Of a stretch of DNA of 23,336 bases, positions 7,180 to 14,072 are shown piece by piece. Source of the stretch: a virus; the IMG/VR virus record IMGVR_UViG_3300033153_006046, positions 1 through 23,336 of that record. One strand, 5' to 3'. Below the pieces are notes generated by a model. The model had not been told where the DNA came from. It did no database searches and saw nothing but the letters and a program-made list of their open reading frames with translations. Both the position numbers and the translations under genes were made by a program. Numbering within the stretch: position 1 is the stretch's first letter; the number at the start of each line of letters is the position of its first letter.

Positions 7180-7560
7180 TTAGGTTTTCGGCGAGAACAA
7201 CCGCAGTTGATCCTCGCCGTCGGGTTGTTTCCCTTGCTCCAGCAAGGAAATGATTTCTTCGATCATCTGAGTCGGACGTTTGCGGATATCCAGCGTCGTA
7301 TACGTCAACACGCGCCACCCCAGCACGACGGCCGCGTTTCGCTTTTCGCATCCTGCCGAATACTGAGGGCCGCGGACGTGGCGACCGCCAGTGAAAATCC
7401 CGCCGTCCATTTCGACCGCCACGCGGTGCGCCGGCCATGCGAAATCGAACCGCCACCTCCGCACAGGGTGGAAGCGGACCTCCCGTTCGGGCTCAGGCCA
7501 CGCGCTGGCCTGCCAGTTCCACAAGATCAGGAACTTTCGCTCAAGGCTGCTCGTGCGCAT
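7180..7560 (-). CDS. PD-(D/E)XK endonuclease (VSR/DUF559-like)
   Basis: The 126-residue protein matches the core of the VSR/DUF559-type nucleases: an acidic region EPEREVRF (23 to 30), RRWRFDFAW (34 to 42) with Asp39, RVAVEMDGG (46 to 54) with Glu50 and Asp52, a conserved-looking RH (60 to 61), a CEKRNAAVVLGWRVLTYT segment (71 to 88) with Asn75. The frame opens at TTG 7563 but ATG 7560 is better placed, overlapping the previous TGA (TGATG). Alone in a phage replication block it could cut branched or host DNA, act as a resolvase-like enzyme or a homing-type nuclease. Substrate unknown. Confidence 0.72.
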   Translation of the reverse strand: MRTSSLERKFLILWNWQASAWPEPEREVRFHPVRRWRFDFAWPAHRVAVEMDGGIFTGGRHVRGPQYSAGCEKRNAAVVLGWRVLTYTTLDIRKRPTQMIEEIISLLEQGKQPDGEDQLRLFSPKT

Positions 7561-8165
7561 CAAAACAACTCCCCCGCAGGTGAGCCGAGCAGTTGCGCCC
7601 GGTCCTGCGGATTGTTAGGGTCAAGCTGGCAGCGGATACCGTCGCCGTCGCGGTACACTTCTCGCATGTCGTCTTCGCCGACAACGCCACACTGACGCGC
7701 GTACTCCTCGCCGGCCTTGCAGTCGCAAGCTCGCGTGATTCGGTAGACCTTGACGCGATCCCCATCGGCCGCCCGTTTGATCTCGGCAATCGTCTTAGGG
7801 TGGAAGCACTCAATCAAGCCGCAGTCGTGACAATCACGGCAGGCGAACGTCGTGTCGCCATCGACCGGAGCAAACCAGCGCGCCTTTTGCTCCACCGCCC
7901 GGGCACGCTCTCGGCTGTAGGACCTGGCTATGCGCAGGATTGCGACGGGGTGTTTCCCGTGACCCTTGGGCTCCAGGTTGTCGTCTGCGTGCATCGCTCG
8001 GCTAGCGCGGATGGCGTCTTCTGCCGGAGTCTCCCACAGCAGATGGAACCATTCCGTCAGCACGCCAACCCGCTTGCTTTCGCCCATCTTGCGTAGCCAG
8101 TCGTCCACGCCCGGAAAGCAGGCGGTGTGAACTTCCAACCAGTTGTCGAAATCATCGCGGGTCAT
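7560..8165 (-). CDS. Zinc-binding replication protein, helicase-loader-like
   Basis: The 201-residue protein starts at ATG 8165 after GGAGCG. Its N-terminal half is helical (DFDNWLEVHTACFPGVDDWL; LTEWFHLLWETPAEDAIRA). A cysteine cluster follows: C109-x2-C112-x2-C115 (ACRDCHDCG) and, after about 30 residues, C147-x-C149, then GEEYARQCG. A CxxC with a distant CxC-x-x-G pattern is typical of zinc domains in phage and bacterial replicative helicase loaders. It lies between the initiator and the nuclease, as expected for a loader. Classification is by architecture; it could be a different zinc protein. The open frame continues upstream to 8222 but that is unsupported. Confidence 0.5.
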   Translation of the reverse strand: MTRDDFDNWLEVHTACFPGVDDWLRKMGESKRVGVLTEWFHLLWETPAEDAIRASRAMHADDNLEPKGHGKHPVAILRIARSYSRERARAVEQKARWFAPVDGDTTFACRDCHDCGLIECFHPKTIAEIKRAADGDRVKVYRITRACDCKAGEEYARQCGVVGEDDMREVYRDGDGIRCQLDPNNPQDRAQLLGSPAGELF

Positions 8166-8352
8166 TTTGCACGCTCCGTTTCGTGGGTCGCCATTGGGAG
8201 TAAGGGCAAGTCTTCCTGGCACCTACTGCCCGCGAAGGAAGGACCCGAGAACATCGCCATCGCGCCCTAGTGTTCCACGGGCTCTTGGTTGCGTGTTGAC
8301 AATCCTTACAACACGCGTGGCCGTCGGCGTATCCGAAGGGTCTCCGCCTCAT
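8152..8352 (-). CDS. 66-aa Cys-rich mini-protein, probable zinc binder (copy B)
   Basis: Cysteines occur at 14, 15, 18, 34 and 49, with W-R-C at 32 to 34 and V-G-x3-T-C at 43 to 49. These two anchors have the same spacing to their cysteines as in the gene at 5866 to 6057, so I read the two as a duplicated small zinc protein. Its ATG overlaps the preceding stop (TGATG) and its end overlaps the helicase-loader-like gene by 14 bases. Arg-rich ends could contact nucleic acid. Function unknown. Confidence 0.6.
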   Translation of the reverse strand: MRRRPFGYADGHACCKDCQHATKSPWNTRARWRCSRVLPSRAVGARKTCPYSQWRPTKRSVQNDPR

Positions 8353-8549
8353 CGGTCGTCCTCCCGGTCACGGGCATCGTCGGCCCGGTCCAGCAATCTA
8401 GGTGGCAAGCCACATTTCCGCATCACAATAGGCAGCGGCCTTCCGCCAAATCCGAAATCATGGGCATCGTCGGCCCGGTCGCCTTCGTCCGGCAGTTCCG
8501 GCCGGTCCTCGTGAGGCGACGCCAGCTTCCATTCGTCGTAGGTCATCAT
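8349..8549 (-). CDS. 66-aa acidic/Arg protein with internal DRADDA repeat
   Basis: Start is at ATG 8549 or 8546 (MMTYDEWKLA), overlapping the previous stop; the upstream part of the frame is Cys/Gly shadow sequence. The protein contains two DRADDAxD units separated by about 30 residues (GDRADDAHDFGFGG and LLDRADDARDREDD), encoded by an exact 19-base direct repeat. Low complexity and charge suggest a disordered linker or adaptor. No family recognised; support is the start/stop coupling to both neighbours. Confidence 0.45.
   Translation of the reverse strand: MMTYDEWKLASPHEDRPELPDEGDRADDAHDFGFGGRPLPIVMRKCGLPPRLLDRADDARDREDDR
8372..8480. repeat. 19-base direct repeat, two copies 90 bases apart
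   Basis: GGGCATCGTCGGCCCGGTC occurs at 8372 to 8390 and again at 8462 to 8480 on the plus strand, both inside the DRADDA gene. The copies encode the same amino acids in the same frame, so this could be internal gene duplication as well as a nucleic-acid repeat. Confidence 0.8.
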
Positions 8550-8749
8550 AGCTTCGCGGCCTTTTCTGCCGCTGCTGACGCACGTTGCGCAAAATCGGCA
8601 GCGTTTGTCGCTTGTTCCGCAGCCACAGCAGCAGCCGCCCATGCGGACGATGCCGCTATCTGTGCCGCCTTCGCGATATTCGATCTGGCGACACACTGGC
8701 TTGCCAATTGTGACGCCGTCAGTTTTTCAGTCGTGGTTTGCTTGGCCAT
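8546..8749 (-). CDS. 67-aa alanine-rich helical protein
   Basis: Alanine makes up over a third of the product, in a regular pattern (IAASSAWAAAAVAAEQATNAADFAQRASAAAEKAAKL, split by single charged or polar residues) that predicts one long helix, possibly an oligomerising or coiled one. The ATG has a strong GGAGG eight bases upstream, and its stop overlaps the next start, which supports translation. It lies one base after the initiator. No family recognised; similar Ala-rich short proteins appear in phages of high-GC hosts. Confidence 0.55.
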   Translation of the reverse strand: MAKQTTTEKLTASQLASQCVARSNIAKAAQIAASSAWAAAAVAAEQATNAADFAQRASAAAEKAAKL

Positions 8750-8750
8750 T

Positions 8751-9704
8751 TCATGGACCTCCTAAGTCAAGCCCCTTGGAAACGCCGCCCGTATCTTCCG
8801 GCGGGAGCGGCCGGGTGCCGCCGCCTTGATCCTGCGACCGCCCGAGCCAGCGCCCCAGGAAGGCCAGCATCCCGCGGGCCGTTTTCTTCTTCGTCGGGTT
8901 GTTGTTCAACCAGAGGCAGGCACGGCCGAACTCCGCGAGTACGTCCATCGCCGGGAAAGCGAGTTCAAACTCTCCGAGCTTCTCCGGCGTGAGGTCCCAG
9001 GTCCTTTTCTTGGGATCTCCATAGACCGGAAAGGTCATCACGACGGGCGACGGCTTGGACGCTGCCGCTTCAAATTTGGCTAGAACGGCTGTTTGACGCT
9101 CTTTCGCCATTTTCCTGCCGGCCGCGTTGGCCACCGCTTTCAATTCGTCGAACCCACGATCTATCGAATTAGTGGCTGACGCGGGCGACGGCTCGGACGC
9201 CGGCTCGTCCGGCTCCGAGCAAGCTGCGCAGCAGCCTTCTTTCCCTTCCTTTCCCTTCTCTTCCCTTCCCTTCCCTTCCCTTCCCTTCCGGGCACCCTCC
9301 TGACGCGCATCTGGCACCTTCCTGTCACCCTCCTGACAGGCTTGCTCTAAAACCTTGCCATCACTGGAGATACGTTCCAACCAGCCGACCGCAATCAGTC
9401 GCGGAATCGCCGCGTCGAAGCATTTCGCCGGAATGCGCGTCATCCGGCTTAGGGAGGCTGAATCGTGCCCTTCGCCAGTGCCCCGCACGAGGGTGCCACG
9501 AGGGTGACACCTGCTTGCCACTTGGGTGCAGACAACCCAGCAAGCGTAGTGCAGGGCACCGTCAGGGTGGTCCAGTAGCGCGGTGTAACCGTCGCTGTCG
9601 TGCTTGTTCGGCAGGGGGACCCACTGCATCATCTTCATGCTCCGGGTCCTGTTGTTCTCGAAGTGCCGATCCCAGTCGACGACCCTTAGGATTGGTTCAT
9701 CCAT
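8751..9704 (-). CDS. Replication initiator, DnaD/O-like
   Basis: The 317-residue protein has the three-part architecture of phage replication initiators. Residues about 41 to 112 form a winged-helix-like domain (LLDHPDGALHYACWVV, LSRMTRIPAKCFDAAIPRLIAVGWLE). A Lys/Glu/Gly/Arg linker follows (about 135 to 157, encoded by a repeat tract). The C-terminal domain (about 182 to 292) contains TWDLTPEKLGEFELAFP and ends in a helix with GMLAFLGRWLGRSQ, resembling DnaD or O-type C-termini that recruit the helicase. The ATG at 9704 was chosen; a TTG at 9713 overlapping the RecT stop (TTGA) is an alternative, and neither has a good ribosome-binding site, so it may be translated by coupling. It follows RecT and precedes a loader-like gene. 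Confidence 0.65.
   Translation of the reverse strand: MDEPILRVVDWDRHFENNRTRSMKMMQWVPLPNKHDSDGYTALLDHPDGALHYACWVVCTQVASRCHPRGTLVRGTGEGHDSASLSRMTRIPAKCFDAAIPRLIAVGWLERISSDGKVLEQACQEGDRKVPDARQEGARKGREGKGREEKGKEGKEGCCAACSEPDEPASEPSPASATNSIDRGFDELKAVANAAGRKMAKERQTAVLAKFEAAASKPSPVVMTFPVYGDPKKRTWDLTPEKLGEFELAFPAMDVLAEFGRACLWLNNNPTKKKTARGMLAFLGRWLGRSQDQGGGTRPLPPEDTGGVSKGLDLGGP
9235..9289 (-). repeat. GGGAA-unit tract inside the replication initiator gene
   Basis: On the plus strand the 55 bases are almost pure C and T, with five perfect TTCCC units at 9261 to 9285 and degenerate units around them. On the coding (minus) strand this reads as GGGAA repeats, with four or more GGG runs spaced by two bases, a pattern that can fold into a G-quadruplex. 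It encodes the Lys/Glu/Gly linker. A dyad (CCTGTCA at 9321 and TGACAGG at 9334) lies just upstream in transcription terms. Confidence 0.85.
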
Positions 9705-9709
9705 GACGA

Positions 9710-10666
9710 TCAAGGGGTGGAGGATTTTCCGATTCGATCCGTCGCGCCGTTCGCCAGTTCGTAGAGTTGGTCCGCCAGGTCCTCGGTCAGCGTGCCGCCA
9801 CCGACCGAGAGGACGATCGTTTTGCGGATCGTCGAAACCTCGTCGGCTGTGTCTGCCTCGGCAATTTGGACGGCGAGAGCCTCGGCTATAAATGCTTGCT
9901 CTGCGGCGATATCCTCCGGTGTCGGGGGCTGGAACTTCGGGTCCACGGGAGGCGGCGCCGGGGGAGGCTTTGGAATACTCGGCAGCGGCGGAGGCTCGGT
10001 CAGCTTGTCCGCCAGGTTGTCCAGGGAGGTGACGGGGTCAACCGGCGGAGCGTCGGCCATCCAATTTGCCTCTTCTTCCGTCACGACGGAGCCGAGTGGC
10101 ACAAACAGCCGGGCCGCGTGTTTCAAGCTGAAAATACGAAGCATGTGGATAAAGATTGTACTGGCGACCGGACCTGCTAGCTTGCGGTATTCGTCGGCCA
10201 GCGCGACGTACTGGGCTGGATGGCTCCGGTTCTTGGAATAGATCGTCGTTGTCACGGAGACGACCTTGTCATCGCCGTCTCTGTCAATGCTCACGTCCAT
10301 TCCATCGTAATGATCGGTCCGGTCAAGAACGCGAATCCAACCGTCCACGCCAACGATGACCATCAAGCCCTTCTTGCCACGGGTCACGTAGATTTCCCGG
10401 GCAAAGGGATCAAGCTCGTATCTCGCGACTAGGGCCATGCCAACCATCAACTCTTGATTGGTGAGTGGCGGCGTGCCCTTGGTTGTCGTCCAGATGACGC
10501 GCAAGACGTCGAAGACCCGCGATTGGTCGCAGCCGAGGAAAGCGGCAACCCGCTCAGGCACGAACTTGCGCGCCGAAGTGGTTGGCCCCTTCAGCAGACC
10601 GGTCAGCAGACTGGCCGATGGCGCCGTAGTTTCCGGCAGCGGTGGCGGTTGCTGTGGTTGGCTCAT
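9710..10666 (-). CDS. recT: RecT-family single-strand annealing protein
   Basis: The 318-residue protein carries the RecT core: LTNQELMVGMALVARYELDPFAREIYV (68 to 94, broken here by no gap) followed by GKKGLMVIVGVDGWIRV and the aromatic HYDGMDV, then a helical part with KHAARLFVPLGSVVTEEE. It should coat and anneal single strands made by the neighbouring exonuclease. The start at 10666 shares a base with the exonuclease stop (TAATG) and has AGGAGG. Beyond the core a proline segment (224 to 250, with EPPPLP) and a C-terminal helical extension of about 70 residues occur, longer than a minimal RecT; the N-terminus also holds a PPPLP. The tail may bind a single-stranded DNA-binding protein or helicase. 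Confidence 0.88.
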   Translation of the reverse strand: MSQPQQPPPLPETTAPSASLLTGLLKGPTTSARKFVPERVAAFLGCDQSRVFDVLRVIWTTTKGTPPLTNQELMVGMALVARYELDPFAREIYVTRGKKGLMVIVGVDGWIRVLDRTDHYDGMDVSIDRDGDDKVVSVTTTIYSKNRSHPAQYVALADEYRKLAGPVASTIFIHMLRIFSLKHAARLFVPLGSVVTEEEANWMADAPPVDPVTSLDNLADKLTEPPPLPSIPKPPPAPPPVDPKFQPPTPEDIAAEQAFIAEALAVQIAEADTADEVSTIRKTIVLSVGGGTLTEDLADQLYELANGATDRIGKSSTP

Positions 10667-11604
10667 TACCTACACCTCCTTAGTACACGGAATTCGTTGG
10701 TCCAGGCTTTCCTGGCTTTGTGGTTGACGGTCTGTAGCTTGTGCGTGTAGGCCATACTGCTATTCCGCAACACGCCGCGCGTGGCCGTGCCCATCGCGGC
10801 CTTGATCTTGTTTTCGTACATCCGGCGTTGGTTCTCCTGCGCCTTGATGTCTTTTTTGCACACCTGCAACTCTTCATCCCAGTGGAACGCATCGTCAGGA
10901 AGAACGATCGTCTCGCCGTCGTCGCGCGGGTAGAGCCGTCTCAGCGTGTCGGTTGTCGCGATCGATCCGTCGGGGTCGGGCGGGGTACGGTCGAGAACCT
11001 GGGTCCAAAAGAATGCTTCTTTAGCGATCATCGCTTCTATGAACCGCTCGTTGCGGTCCACGTCGAAATAGAGCATCTTCTGACCACCAATAAGAACGCA
11101 AAGCGTGCCCCAATTCAGGCCGGTAACGGCCAATTCATGCTGCACTTGCACCTGATAGTGGATCGGCTGTGTGTCTTCCCACTCCTTTTGATTCCACAGG
11201 CTTGTCGTCTTGATTTGTAGCACGCCCTTTCCGCGGCCGTTCCCGTTGGTCTGGAAGGCATCGGGCGTTGCTGTCATCCACAGCCGATCGGGGTGACGCT
11301 CAACCGTCTGGTCAAAGTTGTAACGGATGTCTCGCCCCGATCGCTCAGCGAACGCCTTACCGATCACGAGTTCGAGCCGGGTCCCCCACTCGACCGCCTC
11401 TACGGCGTCCAGGTCCGGCGGTTCGGCTATCCCCGTTTTCTCTGCCCACAGTTGGAATTGCGACTTCCAAGGCGAGATGCCCAGGGCCGCCGCCGCGTCG
11501 CTTGCCCCGATGCTGCCGGTTCGATCGGGGATTACCAGCGTTGGCTCGCCGTCGACCTCGCGGGCCGCGGCGTCGCTTTCGTGTTGGGTTGGGTTTTCGT
11601 TCAC
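10666..11604 (-). CDS. YqaJ-family viral recombinase exonuclease
   Basis: The 312-residue enzyme should digest double-stranded ends to leave strands for RecT. Motifs: GSIGASDAAAALGISPW (30 to 46), the YqaJ hallmark; WGTRLE with Glu78; TATPDAF with Asp115; VLQIKTT with Gln130 and Lys132; IHYQVQVQHELAV (148 to 160). The usual E-x-K acidic residue is Gln here, which is odd. Start is GTG 11604, overlapping the preceding stop (GTGA); a longer frame from GTG 11649 is possible but overlaps the 69-aa gene. The C-terminal third is a charged helical region. It lies directly ahead of RecT, the usual exonuclease-annealase pair. Confidence 0.88.
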   Translation of the reverse strand: MNENPTQHESDAAAREVDGEPTLVIPDRTGSIGASDAAAALGISPWKSQFQLWAEKTGIAEPPDLDAVEAVEWGTRLELVIGKAFAERSGRDIRYNFDQTVERHPDRLWMTATPDAFQTNGNGRGKGVLQIKTTSLWNQKEWEDTQPIHYQVQVQHELAVTGLNWGTLCVLIGGQKMLYFDVDRNERFIEAMIAKEAFFWTQVLDRTPPDPDGSIATTDTLRRLYPRDDGETIVLPDDAFHWDEELQVCKKDIKAQENQRRMYENKIKAAMGTATRGVLRNSSMAYTHKLQTVNHKARKAWTNEFRVLRRCR

Positions 11605-11810
11605 GAGGCGGCGCCCCTTTTGATCAGCGTGTCCGTCAGTTCCCGGCACACTTTCGCGGCCTCTTGCGGCGTGAAGTACAGGACGTGCTCTCCAGTGTCA
11701 TTCTTGCCGATGATCGTGAGGAAGCGGTCGCAGTTTTGAACGGACAGCGTACAGTCGTAGTGTTCGCTGCCGCTTAGGATGCCATCACGAAACTTCAAAC
11801 TCGTAGTCAT
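11601..11810 (-). CDS. 69-aa protein at the head of the recombination operon
   Basis: The protein begins MTTSLKFRDGILSGSEHYD at ATG 11810, with a good GGAGG eight bases upstream; the frame upstream of that ATG is unrelated shadow sequence in the repeat-rich region. It contains beta-like strands (CTLSVQNCDRFLTIIGK, EHVLYFTP) and a C-terminal helix (EAAKVCRELTDTLIKRG). It is the first gene after the long non-coding region, and its stop overlaps the exonuclease start (GTGA). I do not recognise a family. Confidence 0.6.
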   Translation of the reverse strand: MTTSLKFRDGILSGSEHYDCTLSVQNCDRFLTIIGKNDTGEHVLYFTPQEAAKVCRELTDTLIKRGAAS

Positions 11811-11843
11811 AGAATCATCCTCCAGAAAAGCCACCGACCCGGG

Positions 11844-11919
11844 TGGACAACCTGAGCGGCAGAACCGCCAAGATTCCGGGCCGGTAGCGTGTTTCGTGTT
11901 GTGTTTGTCAGGTTGTCCA
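11844..11919. repeat. Perfect 12-base inverted repeat, arms 52 bases apart
   Basis: TGGACAACCTGA at 11844 to 11855 matches TCAGGTTGTCCA at 11908 to 11919 exactly as an inverted copy. The left arm lies 33 bases upstream of the ATG at 11810, so the pair could be two operators or a stem of the transcribed leader that shields translation. A smaller dyad (GCGG/CCGC, in the loop at about 11855 to 11870) lies between. Confidence 0.8.
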
Positions 11920-12022
11920 TATCCGGAATCTAGCGTCCCTGCGGATTCCGTCAAGCGGAATCCATCGAATCTGGGCGGATTTCGGGAAGTAATTCCGCGG
12001 CGTTACACTGTGTCCGATTCCG
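11872..12022. repeat. Five copies of the 7-mer GATTCCG in both orientations
   Basis: Exact copies: 11872 to 11878 (+), 11924 to 11930 (-), 11944 to 11950 (+), 11956 to 11962 (-), 12016 to 12022 (+). The third and fourth form a perfect dyad GGATTCCG-TCAAG-CGGAATCC (11943 to 11963). The fifth lies in a small GTCCG-ATTC-CGGAC hairpin (12012 to 12025). Such clustering suits a repressor operator or initiator iterons. Confidence 0.75.
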
Positions 12023-12039
12023 GACGGTGGAGCGGGGGG

Positions 12040-12088
12040 TGCGCACACAAGCGTAGTGTGCGCAGTAGTGTGCGCAGTAGTGTGCGCA
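12040..12088. repeat. Three tandem 12-base repeats with an inverted flank
   Basis: GTAGTGTGCGCA is repeated without gap at 12053, 12065 and 12077. TGCGCACAC at 12040 to 12048 is the inverse of the GTGTGCGCA core, so the first unit can form a hairpin with it (loop AAGCGTA). Each unit contains the palindrome TGCGCA. Confidence 0.85.
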
Positions 12089-12104
12089 GCCACGGTGCCT
12101 GTAC

Positions 12105-12136
12105 GCGACGTAAAATCTTACGCGGCGACGTAAAAT
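12105..12136. repeat. Two direct copies of GCGACGTAAAAT
   Basis: Copies lie at 12105 to 12116 and 12125 to 12136, starting 20 bases apart, about two helix turns. Between them TTACG (12118 to 12122) makes a short dyad with CGTAA (12109 to 12113). They are the most AT-rich part of the region and lie next to the terminase stop. Confidence 0.7.
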
Positions 12137-12172
12137 TACCGCCGAATTTTCTGGCCGGATTTTCACAACCGA

Positions 12173-13624
12173 TCATTGCGTCGAGACCGAGATGTCCCCC
12201 GTTTGCTGACCGCCGCGGCCCTGGATCAAGTCCCGCCAGAGACGGACCATGAGGGCGAGGGCGTCGGGCCCGTCATCGTGGGAAGCCAAGGGGAAGTCCC
12301 TGAGTTGCTGACCGAGGATGCGCCCCTGGGGCGTGTCGCGGATGCGCAGCCGGTGGAGTGACAGCAGTGGTGTCAAGAGCATCCGGATGTCGACTTCCTT
12401 CCCCTTGCCGGTTGCCGAGGTCCCGGGCTTCGAACCACGTCGTAGGGCCGCCACGGCCTCCGCCCGGCTGTTGTTGTACGGATAGATCGGAGCCAGTGCC
12501 GGGGCCTTGGCGTGGATGTTCGCGGCAACGACTTCCTGGAATCCGTTGATTTCGATCGCGAAAGCGTCCGGCCGCCGGGCCGATAGCATGGCTACGGCCG
12601 TGTCCTCCAACTGCGTCAGCGGCACCCGGACCATCACGGGATCGTCGATCCACAATGTGTCTTCCGGGTCAACTTCCCCGTAAAGCAAAGCGGCGAAGTC
12701 ACCTTTCTTCTTGTCCTTGCCCATGCTGGGGTCCAAGGCCATCAACCGCAGCTTCGGCGTGAACGCCGGCCGGTCGCTGTAGAAAAACGGATCGTCCCAG
12801 TACGACGCCGGCCACTCGCACAACTCGGCGGCCGTCGCCGGGTCTTGCTGGTAGAGGCTATGCCAAATCCAGGGGGTGCCGGCTAACTCTTGGTCCCGCT
12901 TGATGCTGAGTAGTTTCTTGGCGGGGTATCGTTCCGGCCATAGTGCCTTGTTGTGTTCGTCCAGGGCCGGGAACTTGATCCGGTGCCACCGCTCCGCCGG
13001 CTCCAGATCGGCGTTCAGTGCGAGTAGGCTGCCCGAGAGATCGTCCGGATGCCGCCGGCTCATAACGATGACGCATTTGCCGCCGGGCTCCAGACGGGTC
13101 AGTAGCTCGCTGTGAAACCGTTGGTGGAGCGTGGCCCGGGCTTCCTCGGTCGCCACTTCTGCCATCTCCTTAATCAAGTCGTCCGCAATCAAGAGGTGGG
13201 CACCTGTCCCCGCGAGCGACCCCCCGATGCCAAGGCCACGTAGCTCACCCGTGTGAGGCGGGCTGAGACGGAAGTGGCCCCGGCTCTGATAATTAGGGTC
13301 CAGGCCCACGCCGGCCAGGGAGGGCCCCCACTCCCCAACAAGATCACGGATGCGACTCGACCATTCCGTTGCGAAGTTGCCACCGTAACTGACCACCGTG
13401 ACCTTGTGATTGGGCCGCACCATCAAGTGCCAAGAGGGGAGCAGATAGCTGCAATAGTAGCTCTTGCCGTGCCGGACGGGAATCTCAACAATCAGCCGGT
13501 TTCGGTCCGGGCTGGAGAGCATTTCCATCACGGCCGTTTCCAGCGCCCGGATGTGCGGCGGGAACTGCCAGCCCGGCACCGCCAGCCGTCCCAGTGTCGA
13601 GGGCGCGTGCAGCAGTGTCGGCAT
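12173..13624 (-). CDS. Terminase large subunit (packaging ATPase-nuclease)
   Basis: The 483-residue protein should drive DNA into the prohead and cut the genome. ATPase motifs: PVRHGKS (49 to 55), a deviant Walker A; LLIADD (144 to 149), Walker B; CVIVMSRRHPDDLSG (184 to 198), the coupling motif. Nuclease acidic residues: Asp298 in LMALDPSMG, Glu358 in AIEING, and Asp451/Asp454 in SHDDGPDALALM. The start chosen (MPTLLHAP, after AAAGGGA) keeps the segment HIRALETAVMEML that normally precedes Walker A; a longer frame to 13795 reads as low-quality Arg/Ser sequence. It overlaps the small subunit by 140 bases and is followed by the repeat-rich region. Confidence 0.9.
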   Translation of the reverse strand: MPTLLHAPSTLGRLAVPGWQFPPHIRALETAVMEMLSSPDRNRLIVEIPVRHGKSYYCSYLLPSWHLMVRPNHKVTVVSYGGNFATEWSSRIRDLVGEWGPSLAGVGLDPNYQSRGHFRLSPPHTGELRGLGIGGSLAGTGAHLLIADDLIKEMAEVATEEARATLHQRFHSELLTRLEPGGKCVIVMSRRHPDDLSGSLLALNADLEPAERWHRIKFPALDEHNKALWPERYPAKKLLSIKRDQELAGTPWIWHSLYQQDPATAAELCEWPASYWDDPFFYSDRPAFTPKLRLMALDPSMGKDKKKGDFAALLYGEVDPEDTLWIDDPVMVRVPLTQLEDTAVAMLSARRPDAFAIEINGFQEVVAANIHAKAPALAPIYPYNNSRAEAVAALRRGSKPGTSATGKGKEVDIRMLLTPLLSLHRLRIRDTPQGRILGQQLRDFPLASHDDGPDALALMVRLWRDLIQGRGGQQTGDISVSTQ

Positions 13625-14072
13625 CGGCAATGTCCCTTTCGAGTTGCAAGGCCCGGTCGCGCAGGCCCGGGTCGGCCGTGTAGGCCGCGATCGGATCGTA
13701 AGGCATGGCCGTAACTGAGGCTTCGATTTTCTGCGGGGCTGCCAGACCGAGCAAGTCGATCTTGAGCTTGATCGCAGACAGCCGCAGTGATTCATTGACC
13801 ATGTTGCCCTCGATCATTTCCTCGATCTGCTCGAGTGCCCGGGCCCGGTGGATTTCTGAGGTCGAGTGATAGTCGGCGGCAATCGCCGCTTTCGCATTCC
13901 GGATCAAGCGCTGTGCTGTGCTCTTGCAGACGCCGAATTCGGCCATCACTTTCTGCCAGACGCCGCGGTTGCGGTTGGGCAGGTCGAGAAGCTCCAGGGT
14001 CCCGACCAGCCTTCGCTCGCGTTCGACATCGGTGTGCCGGCCGCCTTTCGACTTGCGAGCTTCAAGTCCCAT
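13485..14072 (-). CDS. Terminase small subunit-like protein
   Basis: The 195-residue protein lies directly ahead of the large subunit. Residues about 36 to 65 look like a helix-turn-helix (VWQKVMAEFGVCKSTAQRLIRNAKAAI), and 70 to 111 form two oligomerisation-like helices (EIHRARALEQIEEMIEGN; NESLRLSAIKLKIDLLGL), the usual small-subunit layout for DNA recognition. Its last 45 residues (from about 150) overlap the large-subunit start in another frame and are Gly/Ala/Pro-rich. The ATG follows the stop of the 56-aa gene by one base. Function as packaging recognition protein is inferred from position and architecture. Confidence 0.72.
   Translation of the reverse strand: MGLEARKSKGGRHTDVERERRLVGTLELLDLPNRNRGVWQKVMAEFGVCKSTAQRLIRNAKAAIAADYHSTSEIHRARALEQIEEMIEGNMVNESLRLSAIKLKIDLLGLAAPQKIEASVTAMPYDPIAAYTADPGLRDRALQLERDIADADTAARALDTGTAGGAGLAVPAAHPGAGNGRDGNALQPGPKPADC

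Follow-up and report, generated by a model that had tools for sequence, protein, structure and literature searches.

The locus that we describe lies in a 23,336-base virus record from IMG/VR, the whole of which is referred to here as the window. The genes that could be identified in the window are all on the minus strand and run from terL through the region under study to a 69-aa open reading frame (ORF), genes for a RecE/YqaJ-type exonuclease and a RecT/Bet-type annealing protein, and a 320-aa ORF (Table 1). The product of the last of these matched no family and looks replication-related; positions 9238–9290, within the same ORF, contain five-base repeats of the AAGGG type that encode a stretch rich in Lys, Gly, and Glu.

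Table 1. Features of the locus in the order in which they occur along the minus strand; positions are those of the window, and numbers with a sign are relative to the predicted transcription start
Feature	Positions	Strand	Basis or remark
Terminase large subunit (terL), upstream of region	12173–13795	−	PHROG 38, E 8e-66
GATTCCG near −100, in small hairpin	12016–12022	+	
GATTCCG, dyad half, −42 to −36	11956–11962	−	
−35 hexamer TTGACG (predicted)	11949–11954	−	Sole σ70-like promoter; TTGA conserved in aligned relatives
GATTCCG, other dyad half, overlapping −35 box and spacer, −30 to −24	11944–11950	+	
−10 hexamer TAGATT (predicted)	11927–11932	−	Same promoter match
GATTCCG overlapping −10 box, −10 to −4	11924–11930	−	
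P1 5′ strand TGGACAACCUGA, from +2 of transcript	11908–11919	−	
L1, A/C-rich linker	11889–11907	−	Leader alignments
P2 5′ strand GCUACCGGCCCGG	11876–11888	−	
GATTCCG in transcribed leader, +43 to +49, overlapping end of P2 5′ strand and L2	11872–11878	+	
P3, small hairpin GCGG-UUCUG-CCGC in L2	11856–11868	−	Folds
P1 3′ strand UCAGGUUGUCCA	11844–11855	−	
P2 3′ strand CCGGGUCGGUGGC	11830–11842	−	
U-rich tract UUUUCU after P2, terminator-like	11824–11829	−	
Ribosome-binding site GGAGGA of first gene	11818–11823	−	Sequence
First operon gene, 69 aa	11601–11810	−	No family match
RecE/YqaJ-type exonuclease	10666–11604	−	PHROG 434, E 5e-76; Pfam YqaJ
RecT/Bet-type annealing protein	9710–10666	−	Profile matches

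Five exact copies of the heptamer GATTCCG, all within positions 11872–12022, lie in the non-coding interval between terL, which ends at 12173, and the 69-aa ORF, which starts at 11810. A sequence-only reading had drawn attention to this cluster, and its observation was borne out, with small corrections. The copies alternate in orientation, two of them form a perfect 8-base dyad (GGATTCCG-N5-CGGAATCC, positions 11943–11963; GGATTCCG-CTTGA-CGGAATCC on the minus strand), and the copy at 12016 sits in a small hairpin (GTCCGGAATCGGAC, minus strand); the spacing between neighbors, however, is irregular (52, 20, 12, and 60 bp). The density of the cluster also exceeded chance, as claimed, in that none of 150 shuffled windows contained any 7-mer at five non-overlapping copies within 151 nt. 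The remaining 23.2 kb hold four other copies, about five being expected by chance in the entire window. When the 362-nt intergenic region was shuffled 2,000 times with dinucleotides preserved, five copies of GATTCCG never arose and five copies of any 7-mer arose six times. The 8-bp dyad taken alone had a p value of ~0.04 in its 81-nt region. Other repeated sequences occur nearby: a near-palindrome, GTAATTCCGCGGCGTTAC, at positions 11989–12006 (about −70 to −86 from the predicted start); a trio of tandem repeats of 12 bp (in register, GTAGTGTGCGCAG), adjoined by an inverted copy, GTGCGCAC, at 12039–12090, which are iteron-like; and GCGACGTAAAAT, present twice, 20 bp apart, at 12105–12136.

Two features had been overlooked in the sequence-only reading: a promoter and a conserved leader RNA. 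The only σ70-like promoter in positions 11600–12200, TTGACG-N16-TAGATT on the minus strand, is predicted to drive the recE/recT/replication operon, and we infer that transcription starts (+1) at position 11920. The perfect dyad spans the −35 box of this promoter, and a third GATTCCG copy covers the −10 box. The array had been placed ahead of the recombination and replication genes, which is correct, but the copy at 11872 is inside the transcribed leader and not upstream of the promoter.

The leader RNA begins at +2, directly behind the promoter, and consists of two crossing helices, P1 and P2, located ahead of the first ribosome-binding site. Relatives of the window were obtained from public virus contigs, the source of all of the leader copies, by searches with TerL and RecE (L002, L003, L006, L007, and L025), and L005 was added to these. 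In total there are eight leader copies in seven phages, L006 having a second copy (L006b), and the distance from the −35 box to the start of the leader is kept within about 1 base in the seven copies outside the window. P1 is 9–12 bp long and starts at +2 (+3 in L005); P2 is ~13 bp long and is followed by three to six U residues; and the 3′ strand of P1 ends 1–3 nt before the 3′ strand of P2. P2 thus has the form of an intrinsic terminator, a GC-rich stem with a run of U residues directly after it. Several copies have a weak tract (TTTTCT; TTT in L005), and the sequence GCTTTT is invariant in the seven aligned copies and reads GCTTT in L005. Hairpins in L2 are present in the other copies as well. 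P1 and P2 share no bases, and when the copies were folded with nested structures only, a transcript cut off where P1 ends gave P1 and the full leader gave P2 in eight of eight cases. The two helices may coexist as a pseudoknot or may replace each other.

Both helices are conserved and covary on the transcribed strand. The two best helices crossed in every one of the first six leaders. A descriptor search of 108 loci (0.93 Mb, both strands) matched nothing besides the window, its relatives, and an unexpected second copy in L006, with scores of 56–65 for the real leaders versus 51.5 or less in shuffled loci; L002 was missed because its P2 has a bulged A. In an alignment of seven copies, 97.1% of the helix cells were paired, versus 77.8% when shuffled (0 of 500 shuffles reached the real value) and less than 43% when the strands were slid either way, and 16 of 25 pairs showed two-sided changes. 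This alignment leans towards structure because it was trimmed by hand so that the helix strands alone remained and the bulged A of L002 was dropped, and the search with a covariance model serves as an independent check. That model, for which six leaders were used and P1 was the sole helix, recovered the previously unseen second copy in L006 at an E value of 2e-11 and the copy in L005 at 0.011 across all loci (3e-4 within its own contig). The helix cells comprised 169 Watson–Crick pairs, 10 G·U pairs, and no A·C, as would be expected if the transcribed strand were the functional one, the absence of A·C being partly by construction since the limits of the helices had been set to stretches that pair. 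Weak matches to the model in L123, L109, L125, and L108 were not counted, those that we inspected having neither the crossing helices nor the promoter; a weak match in L035 was also left out of the count, and a match on the opposite strand of the window was a mirror of the same helix. No Rfam covariance model matched the window, L002, or L003 at an E value of 1 or less, and a search of the literature found no description of such an element in the papers covered. The leader is strongly conserved among related phages and is apparently undescribed.

The genetic context of the leader varies among the phages. L002, L003, L006, L007, and L025 carry the same gene block as the window. L005 has a different gene order, and its leader (an 11-bp P1 and an interrupted P2 behind the promoter TTGACA-N17-TATTCT) nevertheless lies at the head of an operon of replication-like, exonuclease, and recT genes. 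For the second copy in L006 the promoter is spaced in the same way, and the gene that follows is replication-like, with a product that we read as a DnaD-like replication protein. L006 (positions 8230–8883) retains the leader although the exonuclease behind it is seemingly of a different family, and hence the leader would not be tied to one gene. A direct repeat, CCTGCGCGATCACGCAGAAAAA, occurs in L003 at 7519–7543 and 7851–7872, ~330 bp apart, each copy being followed by promoter-like sequence, in one case TTGACA-N17-TATAAT. No relative turned up when isolate phages were searched by nucleotide sequence, a search of plasmids yielded nothing beyond a single weak match of 40 bases, and TerL profiles had no matches among GTDB genome contigs and so revealed neither a prophage copy nor a host. 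Three DNA patterns derived from the leader found, in viral contigs, only the known copies, unrelated junctions between terminators and ribosome-binding sites, and chance matches.

What do these observations suggest about the region? On balance, we are inclined to view it as being under two layers of control: a promoter bearing operator half-sites, and a conserved, structured leader that governs the passage of polymerase into the operon. The GATTCCG copies are probably landing sites for a putative regulator, operator sites being the best reading. Most likely, they would be half-sites recognized by a regulator specific to this phage lineage, which when bound would exclude RNA polymerase. The leader, in turn, probably exerts cis control over early transcription, either by attenuation or as a polymerase-modifying RNA similar to put (see below). 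P1 would form once its 3′ strand had been made, and the terminator-shaped P2 only afterwards; to work as a classical attenuator switch, the two would have to compete sterically, because they have no bases in common. In this proposal, the regulator would act at the GATTCCG sites and the leader would then set the amount of polymerase entering the operon. To a broader proposal we give somewhat less than even weight, namely, that the leader represents a new class of phage leader RNA in which a pseudoknot formed from the first transcribed bases controls polymerase in cis, by attenuation or by protein-free antitermination, in combination with lineage-specific operators.

The sequence-only reading had suggested that the repeats might be a repressor operator array or a set of iterons. 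Their placement agrees with the former, in that repeated dyad sites overlap an early promoter, but the array did not prove to be conserved in relatives that keep the flanking genes, a check that the reading had itself put forward. Upstream alignments showed that the −35 box, its distance from the leader, and the leader itself are common to the relatives and that the GATTCCG array is not: among the six phages checked, no copy was found near the equivalent promoter in L002, L003, L006, L025, or L005 (the last read directly), and one was found in L007. A fast-changing operator is possibly still compatible with this absence, since the TerL proteins of the relatives are only ~60–72% identical to that of the window. 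Dyads at the promoters of the other phages are suggestive at best, most of them being no better than in shuffled sequence (the best, in L025, had a p value of ~0.05, and that of L006b ~0.26); L005 has a spacer dyad, AGGTTT-TCCG-AAACCT, that was read directly. No gene for a regulator or repressor was found among the scanned proteins of the contig, which may be a fragment.

The lack of conservation also bears on whether the cluster simply arose through chance and descent, with no regulator involved, which we regard as unlikely but take seriously. One copy lies in the leader RNA and one on the −10 box, both of which are under sequence constraints of their own, and one half-site is common to L025 (ATTCCGCTTGAC). 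Against such an origin are the failure of all 150 shuffled windows to produce a comparable cluster and the presence of a perfect 8-bp dyad on the −35 box.

A second alternative concerns the leader, which could act after transcription while the GATTCCG sites remained operators. P1 would then lock up the 5′ end and shield the mRNA from 5′-end-dependent decay, or L2 would control translation of the first gene through pairing of a CU-rich stretch with the Shine–Dalgarno sequence. The start of P1 at +2 or +3 in all copies is consistent with this idea, as is the complementarity of the CU-rich motif at the start of L2 to the ribosome-binding site, which extends, for example, over 9 bp in L006 and over 11 bp in L007. 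(A motif of this kind, just after the 5′ strand of P2, is seen in L003, L006, L007, and L025.) We nonetheless think a post-transcriptional role less probable: L006b and L002 show only weak predicted pairing of this kind, and the conservation of P2 and its U tract would be left unexplained.

We consider it very unlikely that the GATTCCG copies are iterons of a replication origin. They adjoin replication and recombination genes, and separate 12-bp tandem repeats lie just upstream, at 12053–12089. However, the copies are of mixed orientation and irregular spacing instead of being direct repeats in regular phase, they overlap the −35 and −10 boxes, and they are missing from relatives that keep the genes. 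It is the placement of the copies on the core promoter that leads us to favor operators over iterons, and the 12-bp direct repeats look the more iteron-like of the two. Finally, a leaderless leader peptide, in which conservation would reflect coding from an ATG at the predicted +1 (present in seven of eight copies, with an open frame in those read by hand), was rejected as most improbable, given that L025 and L002 do not keep the same frame at P2, that the frame is variable at the U tract, that L005 has AAG in place of ATG, and that double changes follow the pairing.

The two proposed layers of control have parallels in known systems. In the λ operators OR and OL, dyad repeats cover the −35 and −10 sequences of an early promoter, and the sites differ between relatives. 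The GATTCCG repeats, now placed on a likely promoter, similarly have dyad symmetry, lie on the −35 and −10 boxes, and vary among relatives. Unlike the λ sites, they are mostly single half-sites around one full dyad, and no repressor gene was identified in the contig of the window. Meanwhile, the leader resembles bacterial attenuators and leader terminators in having, between the promoter and the first gene, a GC-rich helix with U residues behind it and, as judged by nested folding, an earlier helix that is able to form first. It differs from them in that the earlier and the terminator-like helices have no bases in common, and neither a leader peptide nor a ligand was identified.

The nearest described parallel to the leader is the put RNA of phage HK022. 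To our knowledge, cis-acting RNAs at the early promoters of phages are few, put being the best studied. It suppresses termination in cis via the zinc-binding domain of the β′ subunit of RNA polymerase. The putL and putR sites specify cis-acting, structured RNAs of ~70 nt that are downstream of the early promoters (directly so for putL), with two copies per genome, one behind each early promoter, and they suppress both pausing and termination (PMC9378689). The leader is likewise located downstream of predicted early promoters and is present twice in L006. The put RNAs, however, are two successive plain stem-loops (PMC9378689), whereas the leader of the window has no two adjacent stem-loops of this kind, being composed of crossing helices that start at +2 and end in a U tract, so that put is to be taken as an analogy and not as a class to which the leader belongs. 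A covarying, two-helix leader that is found across divergent uncultivated phages, that tracks the early operon through a change in gene order, and that occurs twice in one phage is a concrete and testable candidate for another such RNA.
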